A DNA stretch of 32,236 nucleotides from an uncultured Saprospiraceae bacterium. GTDB taxonomy: Bacteria; Bacteroidota; Bacteroidia; Chitinophagales; Saprospiraceae. Positions within the stretch are counted from its first letter, which is position 1. Each line of letters begins with the position of its first letter. The position numbers and the translations under genes are program-made. Below, piece by piece: positions 1 to 29,275 of this stretch. The stretch spans positions 1 through 32,236 of the forward strand of contig CALFBH010000140.1 of NCBI GenBank assembly GCA_937951615.1, given 5' to 3'. The notes under the pieces are model-generated. The model had not been told where the DNA came from. It saw only the letters and a list, made by a program, of their open reading frames with translations, and did no database searches.

Positions 1-136
1 ACCATCGACCATCGACCATCGACCATCGACCATCGACCATCGACCATCGACCATCGACCATCGACCATCGACCATCGACCATCGACCATCGACCATCGAC
101 CATCGACCATCGACCATCGACCATCGACCATCGACC
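1..136. repeat. Heptanucleotide tandem array (ACCATCG)n
   Basis: About 19 perfect head-to-tail copies of the 7-bp unit ACCATCG, continuing beyond the left edge of the window. The unit belongs to the same sequence family (GACCATC/GACTATC) as the arms of the elements at 3367-3550 and 15588-15746, and its orientation matches the right arm of the latter. It may therefore be the expanded right arm of another such element whose core lies outside the window. It ends about 110 bp before the SusC gene. The remaining stretch to 245 holds no gene and no promoter that I could identify with confidence. Confidence 0.95.
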
Positions 137-3366: not shown

Positions 3367-3550
3367 GTCGTCGGTCATCGGTCGTCAGACGATAGTTGTT
3401 TGATAGTTTAGGTCGATAGTCGATAGTCCATCGTCGATGGAAAAAACAATGATGTATATACATTTTGCATTTGCAAAATGCTTAAAAAAGCTGAGTGAAA
3501 TTGTTATTGCTTAAAAAACAGCCATCGACTATGGACTGCGGACTATGGAC
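3367..3550 (-). repeat. Palindromic element with inverted heptamer arms, copy 1
   Basis: Left arm of heptamers (CGATAGT, CGATAGT, CCATCGT, CGATGG; about 3391-3440). The core, 3441-3520, has the hairpin CATTTTGC-ATTT-GCAAAATG at 3461-3480. The right arm of complementary heptamers (CCATCGACTATGGACTGCGG..) is at 3521-3550. Read on the minus strand, the element aligns with 15588-15746: the arm is followed by GATGGCTGTTTTTTAA, then a T-rich core with the same TTTTGC/GCAAAA palindrome, then the inverted arm. It sits between susC and susD, so it could form a stem-loop in the operon transcript and affect the SusC/SusD ratio, which is inference. Confidence 0.8.
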
Positions 3551-3580
3551 AAAAAAATTACAAATTTTTAATAATAAGAA

Positions 3581-13762: not shown

Positions 13763-13794
13763 ATCTGTTTAAAAGAATTGGGTGCTTATCGCAC

Positions 13795-13866
13795 TTACTT
13801 CTTCTTGGTTGTTGGTGCGCTTACAGCGGCTACCAAGAACTTTCTTTTGAATCTACGTCTTAACAT
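13795..13866 (-). CDS. Very basic 23-residue protein, copy 1
   Basis: A 24-codon gene whose product starts MLRRRFKRKF, has a small apolar middle (LVAAVSAP) and ends TTKKK. The family is not recognised. The reading frame is supported by comparison with the copy at 13930-14001: eight of the 24 codons differ, seven differences are synonymous and one is Lys to Arg. Both copies keep the same leader (TTATTATTCAACCTT..) and the same small hairpin GTGC-GATAA-GCAC right after the stop. The 13733-13762 terminator follows. Composition resembles small ribosome- or RNA-binding proteins, but that is only inference. Confidence 0.75.
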   Translation of the reverse strand: MLRRRFKRKFLVAAVSAPTTKKK

Positions 13867-13929
13867 GATATAAATTTTGAAGGTTGAATAATAATTTTTA
13901 TTTAGTAAAAAACTAGGTGCTTATCGCAC

Positions 13930-14001
13930 TTATTTTTTCTTGGTCGTCGGTGCGCTTACAGCAGCTACCAAGAACTTTCTTCTGAATCTCCGTCTCAACA
14001 T
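13930..14001 (-). CDS. Very basic 23-residue protein, copy 2
   Basis: The promoter-proximal copy of the tandem pair, offset by exactly 135 bp from copy 1. The product starts MLRRRFRRKF and ends APTTKKK and differs from copy 1 only at residue 7 (Arg for Lys). The leader and the post-stop hairpin are conserved. A TTTGACA-like element about 45 bp upstream of the start on the minus strand could be part of a promoter, but no clear Bacteroidota -7 box was found. Function is unknown. Confidence 0.75.
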   Translation of the reverse strand: MLRRRFRRKFLVAAVSAPTTKKK

Positions 14002-14307
14002 GATATAAGATTTTAAGGTTGAATAATAATAAAACAAAAAGTTGTCAAATTAATGTCATTAAAGAATTATATTTCGTTTAATGATTTTTTTTAAAATAAA
14101 AAACTTAATTGTTTCGTTTCAAATTACATATACAAGACGATATTTCGACCAAAAAGGTTCACTTACTTTCATCTTTTTTGTAAAAAAGTGAAAACTTTAA
14201 CGTTTTTCTATGCTTTTCTGAGTTTTCGCGCAAAGCATTTAATTTTTCGAACAGCATAAATTACGATTTATTTCATACACGTTCCTTAATTCCTTAAATT
14301 TGCACAC
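14002..14307. other. AT-rich intergenic region between divergent genes
   Basis: About 300 bp without a coding region, between the leader of the small basic genes (-) and the OYE-type gene (+). It must hold both promoters. The only recognisable element is TAAATTTG at 14295-14302, which fits the Bacteroidota -7 consensus TAnnTTTG but has no clear -33 TTTG partner. If used, transcription would begin at or next to the ATG at 14308. Confidence 0.4.
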
Positions 14308-15534: not shown

Positions 15535-15587
15535 ATCCTTTTTATCGTTACTAAATGGTTAAATATAAACAATTCGTAACAGTTATA

Positions 15588-15746
15588 GGTCGATGGTCCA
15601 TAGTCCATAGTCGATGGCTGTTTTTTTTAATATTCAGGTCATTTTCAGCATTTCATTTTGCTTTGCAAAATGCGTGCAAAGCTGCTTACAAAGTAGGAAT
15701 TTTGTTAAATTGCAGCTATGGACTATCGACCATCGACTATCGACCA
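15588..15746 (+). repeat. Palindromic element with inverted heptamer arms, copy 2
   Basis: Left arm 15588-15617 (heptamers of the GGTCGAT / GGTCCAT / AGTCCAT type), core 15618-15714 beginning GGCTGTTTTTTTTAA, with hairpin CATTTTGC-TTT-GCAAAATG at 15654-15672, and right arm 15715-15746 (GGACTATCGACCATCGACTA). It is homologous to the minus strand of 3367-3550 in arms, the GGCTG-T-run junction and the central palindrome. It lies between the OYE gene and the ModC-like ATPase and ends 48 bp before the latter's start. An open frame runs through it in phase with the ATPase gene, but it is not expected to be translated. Confidence 0.8.
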
Positions 15747-15794
15747 AACTGTTGCAACAATTCTTTAAATGTACAGAGTATCTTTATCCCAATA

Positions 15795-18284: not shown

Positions 18285-19658
18285 ATGATTCAACAAAACT
18301 ATTCGCTGCGCAAGCGGCAATTTCGCAATCTGTCTAAGCAAATCAATGGCTTGGTAAAAAGTCAAAAATGGCAGGAATTGAGCCAGGAACAACAAAGTCG
18401 ACTAGCTGGTCGGTTTCACAAATTATTCGGACAAATTCGCTCATTCTTTACCAGAAGGGAACTCAAAAAAGTACTGGCAGGAGCAGCTATGCTCATTGGT
18501 TTGTCAGGTGCAGTGCAAGCACAGGATTTTGCTGCGCCAGTACAAAATGCTTTCTCTTTGATGCCAGTGGTGGATCTAGCTATTCCAAATCTGGTGGATA
18601 TTGATGGAGATGGTGACCTGGACATGTTCATCAGTGAATATGGAGATTATACGCCACCTGCGCTGGTATTTTTCTCCAATGATGGAACGCCTACAGATCC
18701 TATATTCGGAAAACCGGTAAAAAATCCCTTCAATTTTAGCACGACAGCTTATCAATATATCTTTCCCACTTTTGCAGATATGGATGATGATGGCGATTTT
18801 GATATGTTGGGCTTAGGGATTACTGGTTATTACCAGCTCGACTTTTTCTATTATGAAAATGTAGGGTCTGCAACTGCACCAGATTTTGCGGCTGTGCAAC
18901 TTAATCCTTTTAGTTTACAAACGAGCGTTACACTTGCAGTCAATCCACAGCTTGTCGATATGGACAATGATGGCGATTATGATCTGCTGGTAGGCGGACA
19001 ATATTATGATGCAGTTAATGAGGCATACTTGGGTGTGCTTTCTTATTATGAAAATACGGGTACTGCCGCAGCTCCTGACTTTGGGAGTATTCAGTCTAAT
19101 CCTTTTGGACTTGGCATGACGAATACATGGGCTTTCCCTACTGTTGCTGATTTGGACAATGATGGCGATTTTGATATTCTTGTAGGAGAATATTATGGCG
19201 CACTTCAATATTTTGAAAACACAGGAACAGATACTGCACCCGCTTTTGCTGCTGCACAAGCCAATCCTTTTGGACTGACTTCCCCTGTTGAACTGGGTTT
19301 CCCCACATTTGGAGATATTGATAATGATGGCGACCTGGATTTATTTGTTGGCGAATATTATGGCAATACCCAGTTTTTTGAAAACTTGGCAATAGAAGTC
19401 GCTGTACAGAATCCTGAAAAGGAATCAGCCTTACAAATCTTCCCCAATCCTGCCAGCAAGCAAATCACTATTGACTTAGAAGGTCAGTATGATAATATTC
19501 ACTTGTCCATCATCAATGAACTGGGTATGGAGGTCAAGCAACAAGTACTCAGCAATGGACAAAGAACATTGAACATTGAGGACTTGCCCACTGGTTTTTA
19601 TATGGTAGAATTGAAAACTGAGAAGGAACAAATGGTTAAAAAATTAATAATCAAATAA
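18285..19658 (+). CDS. Secreted VCBS-repeat protein with T9SS sorting domain, copy A
   Basis: 457 residues. An unusually long basic leader (about 1-60, two amphipathic stretches) precedes the hydrophobic signal core (about 63-77) and the likely cleavage after AVQAQ (80). Five repeats of about 60 residues follow, each with a calcium-type motif: DIDGDGDLD, DMDDDGDFD, DMDNDGDYD, DLDNDGDFD, DIDNDGDLD. Between them are NPFGL, YYENTGT and APDF-type joints typical of VCBS/FG-GAP proteins. The last about 75 residues (IFPNPASKQITI.. GFYMVELKTEKEQMVKKLIIK) form a type-A T9SS C-terminal sorting domain, so the protein should be exported by Sec and then by T9SS to the surface or medium. No enzyme domain is present; adhesion or matrix binding is inference. 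The start at 18285 is conserved in all three paralogues. Confidence 0.92.
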   Translation: MIQQNYSLRKRQFRNLSKQINGLVKSQKWQELSQEQQSRLAGRFHKLFGQIRSFFTRRELKKVLAGAAMLIGLSGAVQAQDFAAPVQNAFSLMPVVDLAIPNLVDIDGDGDLDMFISEYGDYTPPALVFFSNDGTPTDPIFGKPVKNPFNFSTTAYQYIFPTFADMDDDGDFDMLGLGITGYYQLDFFYYENVGSATAPDFAAVQLNPFSLQTSVTLAVNPQLVDMDNDGDYDLLVGGQYYDAVNEAYLGVLSYYENTGTAAAPDFGSIQSNPFGLGMTNTWAFPTVADLDNDGDFDILVGEYYGALQYFENTGTDTAPAFAAAQANPFGLTSPVELGFPTFGDIDNDGDLDLFVGEYYGNTQFFENLAIEVAVQNPEKESALQIFPNPASKQITIDLEGQYDNIHLSIINELGMEVKQQVLSNGQRTLNIEDLPTGFYMVELKTEKEQMVKKLIIK

Positions 19659-19760
19659 AGCGAGCTGATGAGTTACGAGTTGTCGTGTTGCGAGTTAACG
19701 ATTGAACCCGCAACCCGCAACCCGCAACCCGCAACTCGCAACCCACAAACCCGCAACCAA
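19659..19760. repeat. Heptamer array between VCBS copies A and B
   Basis: Begins with the same roughly 50-bp flank (AGCGAGCTGATGAGTTACGA..) as 18180, with inverted arm GTTGCGAGTT - AACGATTG - AACCCGCAAC, then four or more ACCCGCA units and ACTCGCA/ACCCACAAA variants. Its length and unit order differ from the other arrays in this tandem, as expected for slippage or unequal exchange. Confidence 0.88.
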
Positions 19761-19771
19761 AAATTTAAACT

Positions 19772-21136
19772 ATGATTCAACAAAACTATTCGCTGCGCAA
19801 GCGGCAATTTCGCAATCTGTCAAATCGGATTAATGACTTGATGAAAAGCCAACAGTGGCAGAAGCTGAGCCAAGCGCAACAAACTCGATTGGCTGGCCGC
19901 CTTCACAAACTGTTTGGACAGATTCGCTCATTCTTTACCAAAAGAGAACTCAAAAAAGTACTGGCAGGAGCAGCTATGCTCATTGGTTTGTCAGGTGCAG
20001 TGCAAGCACAGGATTTTGCTGCGCCAGTACAAAATGCTTTCTCTTTGATGCCAGTGGTGGATTTAGCTATTCCAAATCTGGTGGATATTGATGGAGATGG
20101 CGATTTAGACATGTTCATTTCAGAGTATGGCACAGGCAATTCACCTAGTCTGGTATATTTTGAAAATGAAGGCACAGCCTCTGATCCGATTTTTGGGATG
20201 CCCGACAAAAATCCCTTCAATTTTATCTCCAATTCTGAATACTACATCTTTCCTTCGTTTGAGGATATAGATGATGATGGCGATTTTGATATGATGTCTA
20301 TCGGCTATACCAATGCAACTGGTGTGGCTTTGCTTTATCATGAAAATGTCGGAACACCAACTGCACCAGATTTTGGTACACAGCAAATTAATCCATTTGG
20401 GTTTACTAATAATCCCAATGCATTTAATCTAATTAGACCAGTATTGGCCGACTTTGATAATGACGGCGACTTTGACCTGATTGTAGGAGGGGGGGCTTAT
20501 TCATCTTATACTGGTATAATACAGTATTACGAAAATACAGGAACATCCTCCAGCCCTGTGTTTACACTACAAACGAGTCTATTTGCTCCAGTTCCTGGGG
20601 GGGATTACCTATTTCCTACGGTGGGAGATATAGACCAGGATGGCGATTTGGATGTATTGGCTGGTGGTCAATATGGCGTCATGTATTTTTATGAAAATGT
20701 AGGCTCTGCATCTTCTGCTACTTTTGGAGGAGCACAAACCAACCCTTTCGGAATCAGTTCAACTTATTATTATGCATTGCCTACATTAGGTGATATTGAT
20801 GCCGATGGCGACCTGGATTTATTCGTTGGTGAATATTATGGCAATACCCAGTTTTTTGAAAACTTGGCAATGGAAGTCGCAGTACAAAATCCAGAAAAGG
20901 AATCAGCCTTACAAATTTTTCCCAATCCTGCCAGCAAACAAATTACCATTGAGCTAGAAGGGCAACATGACAATATTCATCTGTCCATCATCAATGAACT
21001 GGGGATGAAAGTCAAGCAACAAGTACTCAGCAATGGACAAAGAACATTGAACATTGAGGACTTGCCCACTGGTTTTTATATGGTAGAATTGAAAACCGAA
21101 AACGAGCAAATGATTAAAAAATTAATTGTCAAATAA
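19772..21136 (+). CDS. Secreted VCBS-repeat protein with T9SS sorting domain, copy B
   Basis: 454 residues, a paralogue of copy A with the same plan: basic leader, hydrophobic signal core, cleavage near AVQAQ at 80, five calcium-type repeats (DIDGDGDLD, DIDDDGDFD, DFDNDGDFD, DIDQDGDLD, DIDADGDLD), and a T9SS type-A sorting domain from IFPNPASKQITI to KKLIVK. The stretch from the signal core through the first repeat is almost identical in DNA to copy A (about 19960-20100 against 18473-18613), and so is the 3' end from GAATATTATGGCAATACC onward, while repeats 2-4 differ strongly. This pattern suggests gene conversion at the ends or diversification of the middle. Confidence 0.92.
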   Translation: MIQQNYSLRKRQFRNLSNRINDLMKSQQWQKLSQAQQTRLAGRLHKLFGQIRSFFTKRELKKVLAGAAMLIGLSGAVQAQDFAAPVQNAFSLMPVVDLAIPNLVDIDGDGDLDMFISEYGTGNSPSLVYFENEGTASDPIFGMPDKNPFNFISNSEYYIFPSFEDIDDDGDFDMMSIGYTNATGVALLYHENVGTPTAPDFGTQQINPFGFTNNPNAFNLIRPVLADFDNDGDFDLIVGGGAYSSYTGIIQYYENTGTSSSPVFTLQTSLFAPVPGGDYLFPTVGDIDQDGDLDVLAGGQYGVMYFYENVGSASSATFGGAQTNPFGISSTYYYALPTLGDIDADGDLDLFVGEYYGNTQFFENLAMEVAVQNPEKESALQIFPNPASKQITIELEGQHDNIHLSIINELGMKVKQQVLSNGQRTLNIEDLPTGFYMVELKTENEQMIKKLIVK

Positions 21137-21279
21137 AGCGAGCTGATGAGTTACGAGTTGTCGTGTTGCGAGTTAACGATTGAACCCGCAACCCGCAACC
21201 CGCAACCCGTAACCCGCAACCCGTAACCCGCAACCCGTAACCCGCAACCCGCAACCCGCAACCCGTAAACCCGCAACCA
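21137..21279. repeat. Expanded heptamer array between VCBS copies B and C
   Basis: Same conserved flank and inverted arm as the arrays at 18180 and 19659, then about fourteen units of ACCCGCA/ACCCGTA in mixed order. It is the longest of the three arrays inside the VCBS tandem. Confidence 0.88.
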
Positions 21280-21291
21280 AAATTTTAAATT

Positions 21292-22653
21292 ATGATTCAA
21301 CAAAACTATTCGCTGCGCAAGCGGCAATTTCGCAACCTATCAAAGCAAATCAATGGCTTGGTAAAAAGCCGAAAATGGCAGGAACTAAGTCAGGAACAAC
21401 AAAGTCGCCTGTCTGGTCGGTTTCACAAATTATTTGGACAAATCCGTTCATTATTTACCAAAAGAGAACTCAAAAAAGTACTGGCAGGAGCAGCTATGCT
21501 CATTGGGCTGAATGGTGCAGTGCAGGCACAGAATTTTGCCGCGCCTGTACAAAATCCTTTCTTTATGATGCCGGTTGTCGACTTAGCAATTCCTAAGCTT
21601 GTGGACATGGACGGAGACGGTGACCTTGATCTCTTTGTTGCCGAATATGGAGAATACGAAGCGACCTTGATTTATTATAATAATGAAGGAACGGCTACAA
21701 ACCCTATATTTGGAAAACCACGAAAAAATCCATTCAATTTCACCACTAGTGCCTATCGTTATATTTTTCCTTCGTTTGCAGATGTAGACAATGATGGCGA
21801 CATAGATATGCTTGGAATGGGCATCACGGGCTATGGGCAGTTGGACTTTTTATACCATGAAAATGTAGGCACAGCCACTGCGCCCAATTTTGCAACAGAG
21901 CAAATCAATCCTTTTGGCTTATTGCCTAATGCACCTATAACGGTTTCGACGGACTTAGCTGATATGGACAATGACGGTGATTTTGATATGCTGACAGGCG
22001 GAATTAACCCTGTGGGCTACCTGGGTACGATTTCTTATTTTGAAAATACTGGCACAAATACACAACCGGCTTTTGCGGGTATTCAGGAAAATCCGTTTGG
22101 ATTGGGCAATACTTACGCCTATGCTTTTCCTGCTACTGCTGATCTTGATGGTGATGGAGATTTAGACATTCTTTCCGGAGAATACTATGGAGGCTTGCAA
22201 TATTTTGAAAACACAGGTACAAACGCTTTAGCCACTTTTGCACCAGTACAGGCCAACCCGTTTGGTTTGGTGTCTGTAAATTACTTAAGCTTCCCTACAT
22301 TTGGCGATATTGACGGAGATGGCGACCTGGATTTATTTGTCGGTGAAGCTGACGGCAATGTTCAATTTTTTGAAAACCTGGAAATAGAAGTTGCCATACA
22401 AGACCCAGAAAAGGAGTCCGTCATGCAAATCTTCCCAAATCCAGCCAGCGAGCAAATTACGATCCAACAGACGAATCAGTTATTGGGCGAAAGCCACATT
22501 TCTATTGTCAATGAATTGGGTGTGACTGTTCGTCAAATGAAACTGACCAAGCAGGAACAAACAATTAACATTAAGGACCTACCTGTTGGTTTTTATATGG
22601 TAGAATTGAAAACTGAAAGCGAGCAGATGGCTCGAAAATTAGTCATTAAATAG
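21292..22653 (+). CDS. Secreted VCBS-repeat protein with T9SS sorting domain, copy C
   Basis: 453 residues, the most diverged of the three paralogues. Leader and signal region end at AVQAQ (80). The repeats carry DMDGDGDLD, DVDNDGDID, DMDNDGDFD, DLDGDGDLD and DIDGDGDLD. The sorting domain runs from IFPNPASEQITI and ends QMARKLVIK. The sorting domain has an altered middle (QQTNQLLGESHISIVNELGVTVRQMKL) compared with A and B. The 3' flank also differs: the conserved GCGAGCTGATGAGTTACG sequence is replaced by a related but degenerate one. It is probably the oldest member or the edge of the duplicated block. Confidence 0.92.
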   Translation: MIQQNYSLRKRQFRNLSKQINGLVKSRKWQELSQEQQSRLSGRFHKLFGQIRSLFTKRELKKVLAGAAMLIGLNGAVQAQNFAAPVQNPFFMMPVVDLAIPKLVDMDGDGDLDLFVAEYGEYEATLIYYNNEGTATNPIFGKPRKNPFNFTTSAYRYIFPSFADVDNDGDIDMLGMGITGYGQLDFLYHENVGTATAPNFATEQINPFGLLPNAPITVSTDLADMDNDGDFDMLTGGINPVGYLGTISYFENTGTNTQPAFAGIQENPFGLGNTYAYAFPATADLDGDGDLDILSGEYYGGLQYFENTGTNALATFAPVQANPFGLVSVNYLSFPTFGDIDGDGDLDLFVGEADGNVQFFENLEIEVAIQDPEKESVMQIFPNPASEQITIQQTNQLLGESHISIVNELGVTVRQMKLTKQEQTINIKDLPVGFYMVELKTESEQMARKLVIK

Positions 22654-25457: not shown

Positions 25458-25556
25458 GATGTGCGCATGTGTTGAGGTGAGTGTTTTGCCCCGCAAAACA
25501 CGACAACACGACAACACGACAACACGACAACACGACAACACGACAACACGACAACA
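25458..25556. repeat. Palindromic element with octamer arm, upstream of gmhA
   Basis: It starts with the right 23-bp direct repeat (25458-25480), which is a GTGTTGA-type left arm. A perfect 9-bp hairpin GTGTTTTGC-CCC-GCAAAACAC follows at 25481-25501, then seven perfect CGACAACA octamers (25501-25556). The centre has the same TTTTGC-N3-GCAAAA core as 3461, 15654 and 29155. The array ends 5 bp before the gmhA start. Confidence 0.88.
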
Positions 25557-29090: not shown

Positions 29091-29275
29091 GAAGTTGATT
29101 GAGTTCCTAAGTTGATTGAGTTATTAGGTGTATTAAGTTAATTGCGTAGTAATTATTTTGCTACGCAAAATACGCTAGATCAACCCACAACCCGACAACC
29201 CACAACTCGCAATTCGCAACCCGACAACCCACAACCCGACAACTCGCAACCCGACAACTCGCCAACTCAATCACT
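29091..29275. repeat. Palindromic element with inverted arms and TTTTGC/GCAAAA centre
   Basis: The left arm, 29091-29140, has GTTGATTGAGTT-type units. The central hairpin ATTTTGC-TAC-GCAAAAT is at 29155-29171, inside an outer GCGTA/TACGC pair. The right arm, 29180-29275, has units AACCCGAC, AACCCAC, AACTCGC and ends CCAACTCAATCACTTC, which is the inverse of the left end. The right arm covers the stop codon of the phosphatase gene (29271-29273). Together with 29031-29090 this fills the gap between the START and phosphatase genes. Confidence 0.8.

Follow-up and report, generated by a model that had tools for sequence, protein, structure and literature searches.

Two palindromic elements, each with heptamer arms on both sides of a TTTTGC/GCAAAA hairpin, lie in opposite orientation within a 32,236-nucleotide stretch of DNA (hereafter the window), and raise the question of what kind of repeat they belong to, how it spreads and what its parts do. 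The window corresponds to contig C140 in a draft assembly of 142 contigs and 6.96 Mb. Judging from the nearest matches of one window protein, which are Saprospiraceae and Aureispira genomes obtained from metagenomes, the host most likely belongs to the Saprospiraceae.

The two elements and their copies

The first-pass annotation had taken the two elements for homologous copies, and this reading holds. Indeed, both are present, and reverse-complemented element 1 aligns with element 2 at a score of 58 (maximum of 200 shuffles: 25); the alignment spans the hairpin and one arm together with the GATGGCTGTTTTTT junction. Element 2 could be refined to a complete copy of 180 bp, in which two end repeats enclose a left arm of four GTCSATR heptamers, 100 bases of interior containing the hairpin, and a right arm of four inverted heptamers; a perfect 8-bp direct repeat lies on each side. 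Element 1 is more diverged, and its best limits carry end remnants that agree with GTAACAGTTTAG at 9 and 8 of 12 positions, scores of at least 8 and at least 9 being reached by 0.3% and 0.05% of 19348 intergenic 12-mers, respectively. As its flanks agree at 5 of 8 positions only, a duplication cannot be claimed there. The features of the window are the following:

1-136, minus strand: array of about 19 ACCATCG heptamers at the contig start
3367-3399, no strand: degenerate heptamer-like sequence beyond the end of element 1 (by eye)
3400-3561, minus strand: element 1, diverged copy, with susC-like and susD-like genes on its two sides (names by eye)
3400-3411, plus strand: element 1, remnant end repeat (9/12)
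3412-3440, plus strand: element 1, arm
3461-3480, no strand: element 1, hairpin core CATTTTGC-ATTT-GCAAAATG
3523-3550, minus strand: element 1, inverted arm
3550-3561, minus strand: element 1, remnant end repeat (8/12)
15568-15575, no strand: target-site duplication, left copy, 8 bp, AACAATTC (flank comparison)
15576-15755, plus strand: element 2, complete MITE copy, 180 bp
15576-15587, plus strand: element 2, left end repeat (9/12 to GTAACAGTTTAG)
15589-15616, plus strand: element 2, left arm, four GTCSATR-type heptamers
15655-15671, no strand: element 2, hairpin core ATTTTGC-TTT-GCAAAAT
15717-15744, minus strand: element 2, right arm, four inverted heptamers
15744-15755, minus strand: element 2, right end repeat (10/12)
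15756-15763, no strand: target-site duplication, right copy, 8 bp, AACAATTC (flank comparison)

The array at the contig start probably represents one arm of an additional copy that the assembly has truncated. Other repeats were observed in the window as well: two more TTTTGC...GCAAAA hairpins with other arm types (29155-29171 and 25484-25498; GTTGATTGAGTT/CAACCCACAACCCG and AACACGAC), three successive similar genes that each stand behind a GAGTT...AACCCGC inverted array of differing length (18285-22653), and an intergenic 135-bp unit in about two tandem copies (13781-14030).

The element had also been expected to recur in the genome, and it does so many times over. Of 316 candidates, 40 were scored and all 40 matched, 39 of them being places other than the window copy and 79-90% identical. 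The ATTTTGC-N0-12-GCAAAAT hairpin gave 231 matches in the 6.96 Mb versus 2 for the reversed control, and the three-unit arm pattern GTCSATRGTCSATRGTCSAT gave 285 and 302 matches on the two strands versus 0, a count of 587 in which overlapping matches within one array are treated separately. Ten of the 40 scored places fall inside the 800 kb of the genome that were examined, and extrapolation gives a rough, likely low, total of about 90 copies. Over 832 kb, 27 paired-arm elements were placed: 22 are intergenic, two stand at contig starts and three lie within open reading frames (ORFs) called by a greedy caller. One of these three is the window copy, and the start of the ORF overlapping it was probably called too early. 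The copies measure about 70-200 bp and hold no transposase gene, for which they are too short. The view of a mobile, non-autonomous, MITE-like element settled in unrelated neighbourhoods is therefore upheld by the scattered and mostly intergenic copies.

The family is concentrated in one genus. When 60 genomes were searched, the hairpin was found 228, 42, 32, 62, 44 and 13 times in the six genus members (the source genome and five others, G001 to G005) and 0-5 times in each of the remaining 54. In G001 to G005, the GTCSATRGTCSATRGTCSAT arm pattern has 148, 4, 73, 28 and 7 matches, respectively; it has 16 in a genome of the same family (G018), four in one of the same order (G056) and none in the other 52. 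The reversed control of this pattern itself matches in two non-genus genomes (7 and 11 times).

Outer ends and flanking duplications

The aligned copies have in common a pair of outer inverted ends, GTAACAGTTTAG/CTAAACTGTTAC, located external to the heptamer arms (type A). Exact ends occur 27 times in the source genome versus once for the control. The first-pass annotation had described termini built from tandem heptamers, with no fixed terminal repeats. This part has to be revised, as a 12-bp end repeat outside the heptamers bounds an 8-bp duplication, and the idea of heptamer arrays as element ends is corrected accordingly.

The duplication was assessed by comparing flanks within and between copies. 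Of 30 copies, 22 have two ends that score at least 8/12, and the 8 poor-end copies were set aside. For the 22, flank identity at k=8 was 0.688 within copies versus 0.339 between copies, a value reached in 0 of 5000 permutations. Four of these 22 copies display a perfect 8-bp duplication (L001, which is the window copy, L018, L019 and L027), whereas the 8 poor-end copies agree at 14 of 64 flank bases. Other lengths also stood above the permutations (k=7, 0.468, 0/5000; k=9, 0.434, 35/5000; k=2, 0.432, 134/5000), and k=16 (264/5000) and k=11 (274/5000) beat most of them, k=8 being the highest by far. In a separate set of 38 loci, from which 18 end pairs (several with poor ends) were retained, identity at k=8 was 0.465 versus 0.324 (1 of 3000 permutations; runner-up k=4, 139/3000). 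This set includes one 8/8 duplication (L219) and two of 7/8 (L202 and L203), the agreement of the latter two having been noticed before the test was made.

An 8-bp duplication beside inverted ends is characteristic of DDE transposases. Thus, the end repeats and the duplication together argue for a DDE-type MITE rather than a REP/RAYT element, and we hold with high confidence that the type A element is a MITE moved in this way. A tendency to insert into the centres of palindromes was also considered and not retained, since 0 of 22 type A loci and 2 of 16 loci with other outer repeats (type B, see below) exceeded the 95th percentile of the control. In G001, G002 and G003, the gap between the susC-like and susD-like genes contains no heptamer-type element; G001 and G003 have other palindromes there (by eye), the one in G003 (L154) being a different palindrome with a similar core, TATTTTTTGC-GCA-GCAAAAAATA.

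In the mechanism that we propose, the outer ends would, from their position, be the sites of a DDE transposase acting in trans. This enzyme, which most likely comes from the single-ORF ISBst12 group of IS66, would join the element to DNA cut with a stagger of 8 bases. The heptamer arms would serve as subterminal sites, their unit number rising and falling through slippage, and the ends and the middle would have recombined or nested in the course of evolution, as a related module in other outer repeats suggests (G001, see below). This account covers type A only, for which we regard it as probable, and with it a repeat class of one bacterial genus would be explained as transposon copies.

A probable partner transposase and the separable middle

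A search with the PF03050 (TnpC) profile returned no match in the source genome; the profile is present in 15 of the 60 relatives searched. No autonomous partner with the same ends was found in the source genome, a draft assembly searched for ends within one mismatch, and sites at that level are as frequent as background (69 versus 70 for the control). The sole inverted end pair at the spacing of an insertion sequence (C85:39275/40443, 1180 bp) was rejected: each of its ends belongs to a heptamer element of its own, and the 279-aa ORF within it looks methyltransferase-like by eye, not like a transposase. At the same place (G000 C85:39275-40454, L214), the outer ends are inverted as in a would-be composite, with no flanking 8-bp repeat by eye.

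Two IS66-type elements from relatives of the same family offer a closer comparison. The first (L227) has ends GTAACTACTCASGT and AATATTTC, one 452-aa ORF and a perfect 8-bp duplication; the second (L230) has ends GTAACTGGTTAGCC and AAAAAAAT, a perfect, A-rich 8-bp duplication and a 509-aa ORF that extends 44 bases beyond the element end. The ends of our element agree with IS66-type ends at 8 to 10 of 12 bases, and it shares with the single-ORF IS66 elements of the same family the GTAAC start, AG at positions 11-12 and the 8-bp duplication. Among published elements, the passages concerned give IS66 members 8-bp repeats and ends beginning GTAAGCG (PMC11946415), tabulate two IS66 elements with 8-bp repeats (PMC3281130), and describe ISDge4, of the ISBst12 group, as having GTGACTACTCAGCA and GTAACTGCTCAGCA for its ends and a repeat of 8 bp (PMC12898284). 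The classical GTAAGCG start is thus not seen at the ends of our element, which do begin with GTAA. Like ISDge4, L227 and L230, as far as the published excerpt on the former goes, the element combines GTAAC-type ends with an 8-bp duplication; it differs in having no transposase, and neither L227 nor L230 shows heptamer arms at its ends. An IS66-type partner, which may have been lost or left unassembled, appears somewhat more probable than any other origin. A long open frame in G001 (L228, C298) joins an IS66-type portion to one that resembles a RecB-like nuclease by eye.

IS256, ISL3, IS6 and IS1595 are DDE families that also make 8-bp duplications, and the MITE could have been moved by one of these. 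The lack of an IS66 transposase in the source genome and the agreement of only 8-10 of 12 end bases are in keeping with such an origin, whereas the GTAAC start, the AG at positions 11-12 and the 8-bp length match single-ORF IS66 elements of the same family, so that we consider it a lesser, though real, possibility.

The IS66-type reading concerns the ends; the middle appears to have a history of its own. In the sister species G001, an inner module homologous to that of our element (70-81% identical over the longer matches) is enclosed, at the majority of the 20 loci inspected, by ACATGAGTCATCCCGAATTTT.../...AAAATTCGGGATGACTCATGT or a variant (type B), and in one locus (L268) by a third pair of outer repeats (by eye). 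Exact type A ends were not found in G001 to G004, and G005 has 2 versus 3 for the control. Around the type B ends of G001, no significant duplication was detected, the best z being 2.6 across about 1200 combinations of shift and length; 16 of the 20 loci passed the end score in this test, among them L268 with its other outer repeats. In the source genome itself, type B ends enclose the module at C41:265249, and B-like ends occur without it at about C41:89572-89706. The occurrence of the module within differing ends, and of B-like ends without the module, indicates that ends and middle are separable.

Two interpretations follow this separation further. The module could be an older palindromic element nested within different carriers, type A in the source genome and type B or others in G001. 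The G001 loci and the two type B or B-like places of the source genome are what such nesting would produce; however, every type A end whose inside was read has heptamers, older copies of the module in the source species often retain traces of type A ends (by eye), and no duplication was shown around a bare module, and we therefore regard nesting as rather unlikely. Alternatively, the arms and hairpin could form a lasting selfish unit that changes vehicles, with IS66-like ends here and unrelated repeats in G001, a proposal that we put forward as speculative and doubtful. A kept middle with exchangeable ends would be the reverse of an ordinary MITE and, if the middle does change ends between species, the definition of MITEs by their ends would be called into question.

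Hairpin, heptamer arms and known repeat families

Most copies retain the hairpin, and ATTTTGC and GCAAAAT are invariant in 30 of 30 aligned copies. Nevertheless, L202 and L203 carry no hairpin core yet have good ends and 7/8 duplications, from which it follows that the core is not needed for movement. The conservation could instead reflect a structured RNA or an intercistronic attenuator kept for its function, a reading favoured by the strong predicted folding (z-scores of -7.9 and -4.8 for elements 2 and 1, respectively), by the invariant hairpin halves and by the position of element 1 within a likely operon. However, any inverted repeat folds well, the covariation term is -0.03 and 1 of 31 pairs has changed on both sides, so that there is no sign of selection on an RNA; moreover, an Rfam search of the window returned no match and the 8-bp duplication would be left unexplained, which makes a functional RNA very unlikely. 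As for the notion that the arms avoid pairing, pairing found no support, in a comparison whose shuffled control mixes orientations and whose copies share ancestry. Copies in likely operons, such as element 1 between its susC-like and susD-like genes, could still tune expression, as far as their position suggests.

A REP/REPIN-type element mobilised by a RAYT (Y1) transposase, the partner suggested by the first-pass annotation, would likewise be palindromic, intergenic and in high copy number, and one Y1 protein of the genome (L200) is RAYT-like by eye. The association itself was not borne out: none of the four Y1 matches, in loci of 3.2-3.3 kb each, is adjoined by the core or by a heptamer run, single heptamer words alone being present in two of the four. 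The 8-bp duplication also speaks against it, as to our knowledge REP/RAYT elements are not expected to make a target-site duplication, and we regard this origin as highly improbable. The protein in question (G000:C123:19339-19605, in a 184-aa frame) is adjoined by a short repetitive frame, possibly its own repeats (by eye).

The preferred reading, a MITE family with inverted heptamer arms moved by a DDE transposase, is thus of a known kind and of unusual build. The STRR of cyanobacteria are tandem heptamers, as are the arms of the element. BrickBuilt, a MITE of Porphyromonas gingivalis, is likewise from the Bacteroidota, intergenic and provided with internal tandem repeats of varying number; as outlined in the source (PMC4596501), it is composed of a single run of 23-bp repeats with a leader and a tail, whereas our element has inverted 7-bp arms around a hairpin. 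The TAACTGA repeats of Beggiatoaceae, Cyanobacteria and five Bacteroidetes are also intergenic tandem heptamers, but of another unit, mostly direct and placed before start codons, and the passages on them describe no core, ends or duplication (PMC4679880). Among the titles and abstract openings listed in searches of open-licence PMC papers, none describes the element.

The arms are dominated by the heptamers GTCGATG, GTCGATA, GTCCATA and GTCCATG, and their counted length ranges from 2 to 16 units. Four units are the most usual form (left arms, 51 of 77; right arms, 47 of 77), 16 units are found in two copies at contig starts, and the start of the window has about 19. In L202, nine left units (by eye) go together with exact ends and a 7/8 duplication, and the interior of this copy was found again where contigs C41 and C10 begin, which indicates that arms can expand, presumably via slippage. 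A variable number of tandem units beside transposon ends makes this a testable system. Slippage-made arrays with chance palindromes and no transposition, for which the many other intergenic arrays of 6- to 8-bp units might speak, are refuted for the type A copies with good ends by the non-repetitive interior common to copies at unrelated sites and by the 8-bp duplication, and deserve next to no credence for the family.

These other arrays have a distribution of their own. In 832 kb including the window, 433 intergenic gaps of at least 60 bp hold 33, 46 and 38 arrays of period 6, 7 and 8, versus 0, 0 and 2 in shuffled sequence. Arrays of period 7 or 8 are more often G-rich in the left half of the gap (26 versus 9) and C-rich in the right half (33 versus 11). 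Neighbouring arrays follow the order G-rich then C-rich 11 times and the reverse order never; the array counts include the GTCSATR arms, and this order indicates that the G-rich strand is directed at the middle of the gap. At four places (G000 C41:245003, C10:91737, C41:64921 and L034), cores are accompanied by unlike arm unit types, as if these had been exchanged. Finally, at L027, G000 C10:126884 and C10:103418, the heptamer arms contain the palindrome CCCGATAGCTATCGGG or a variant of it.
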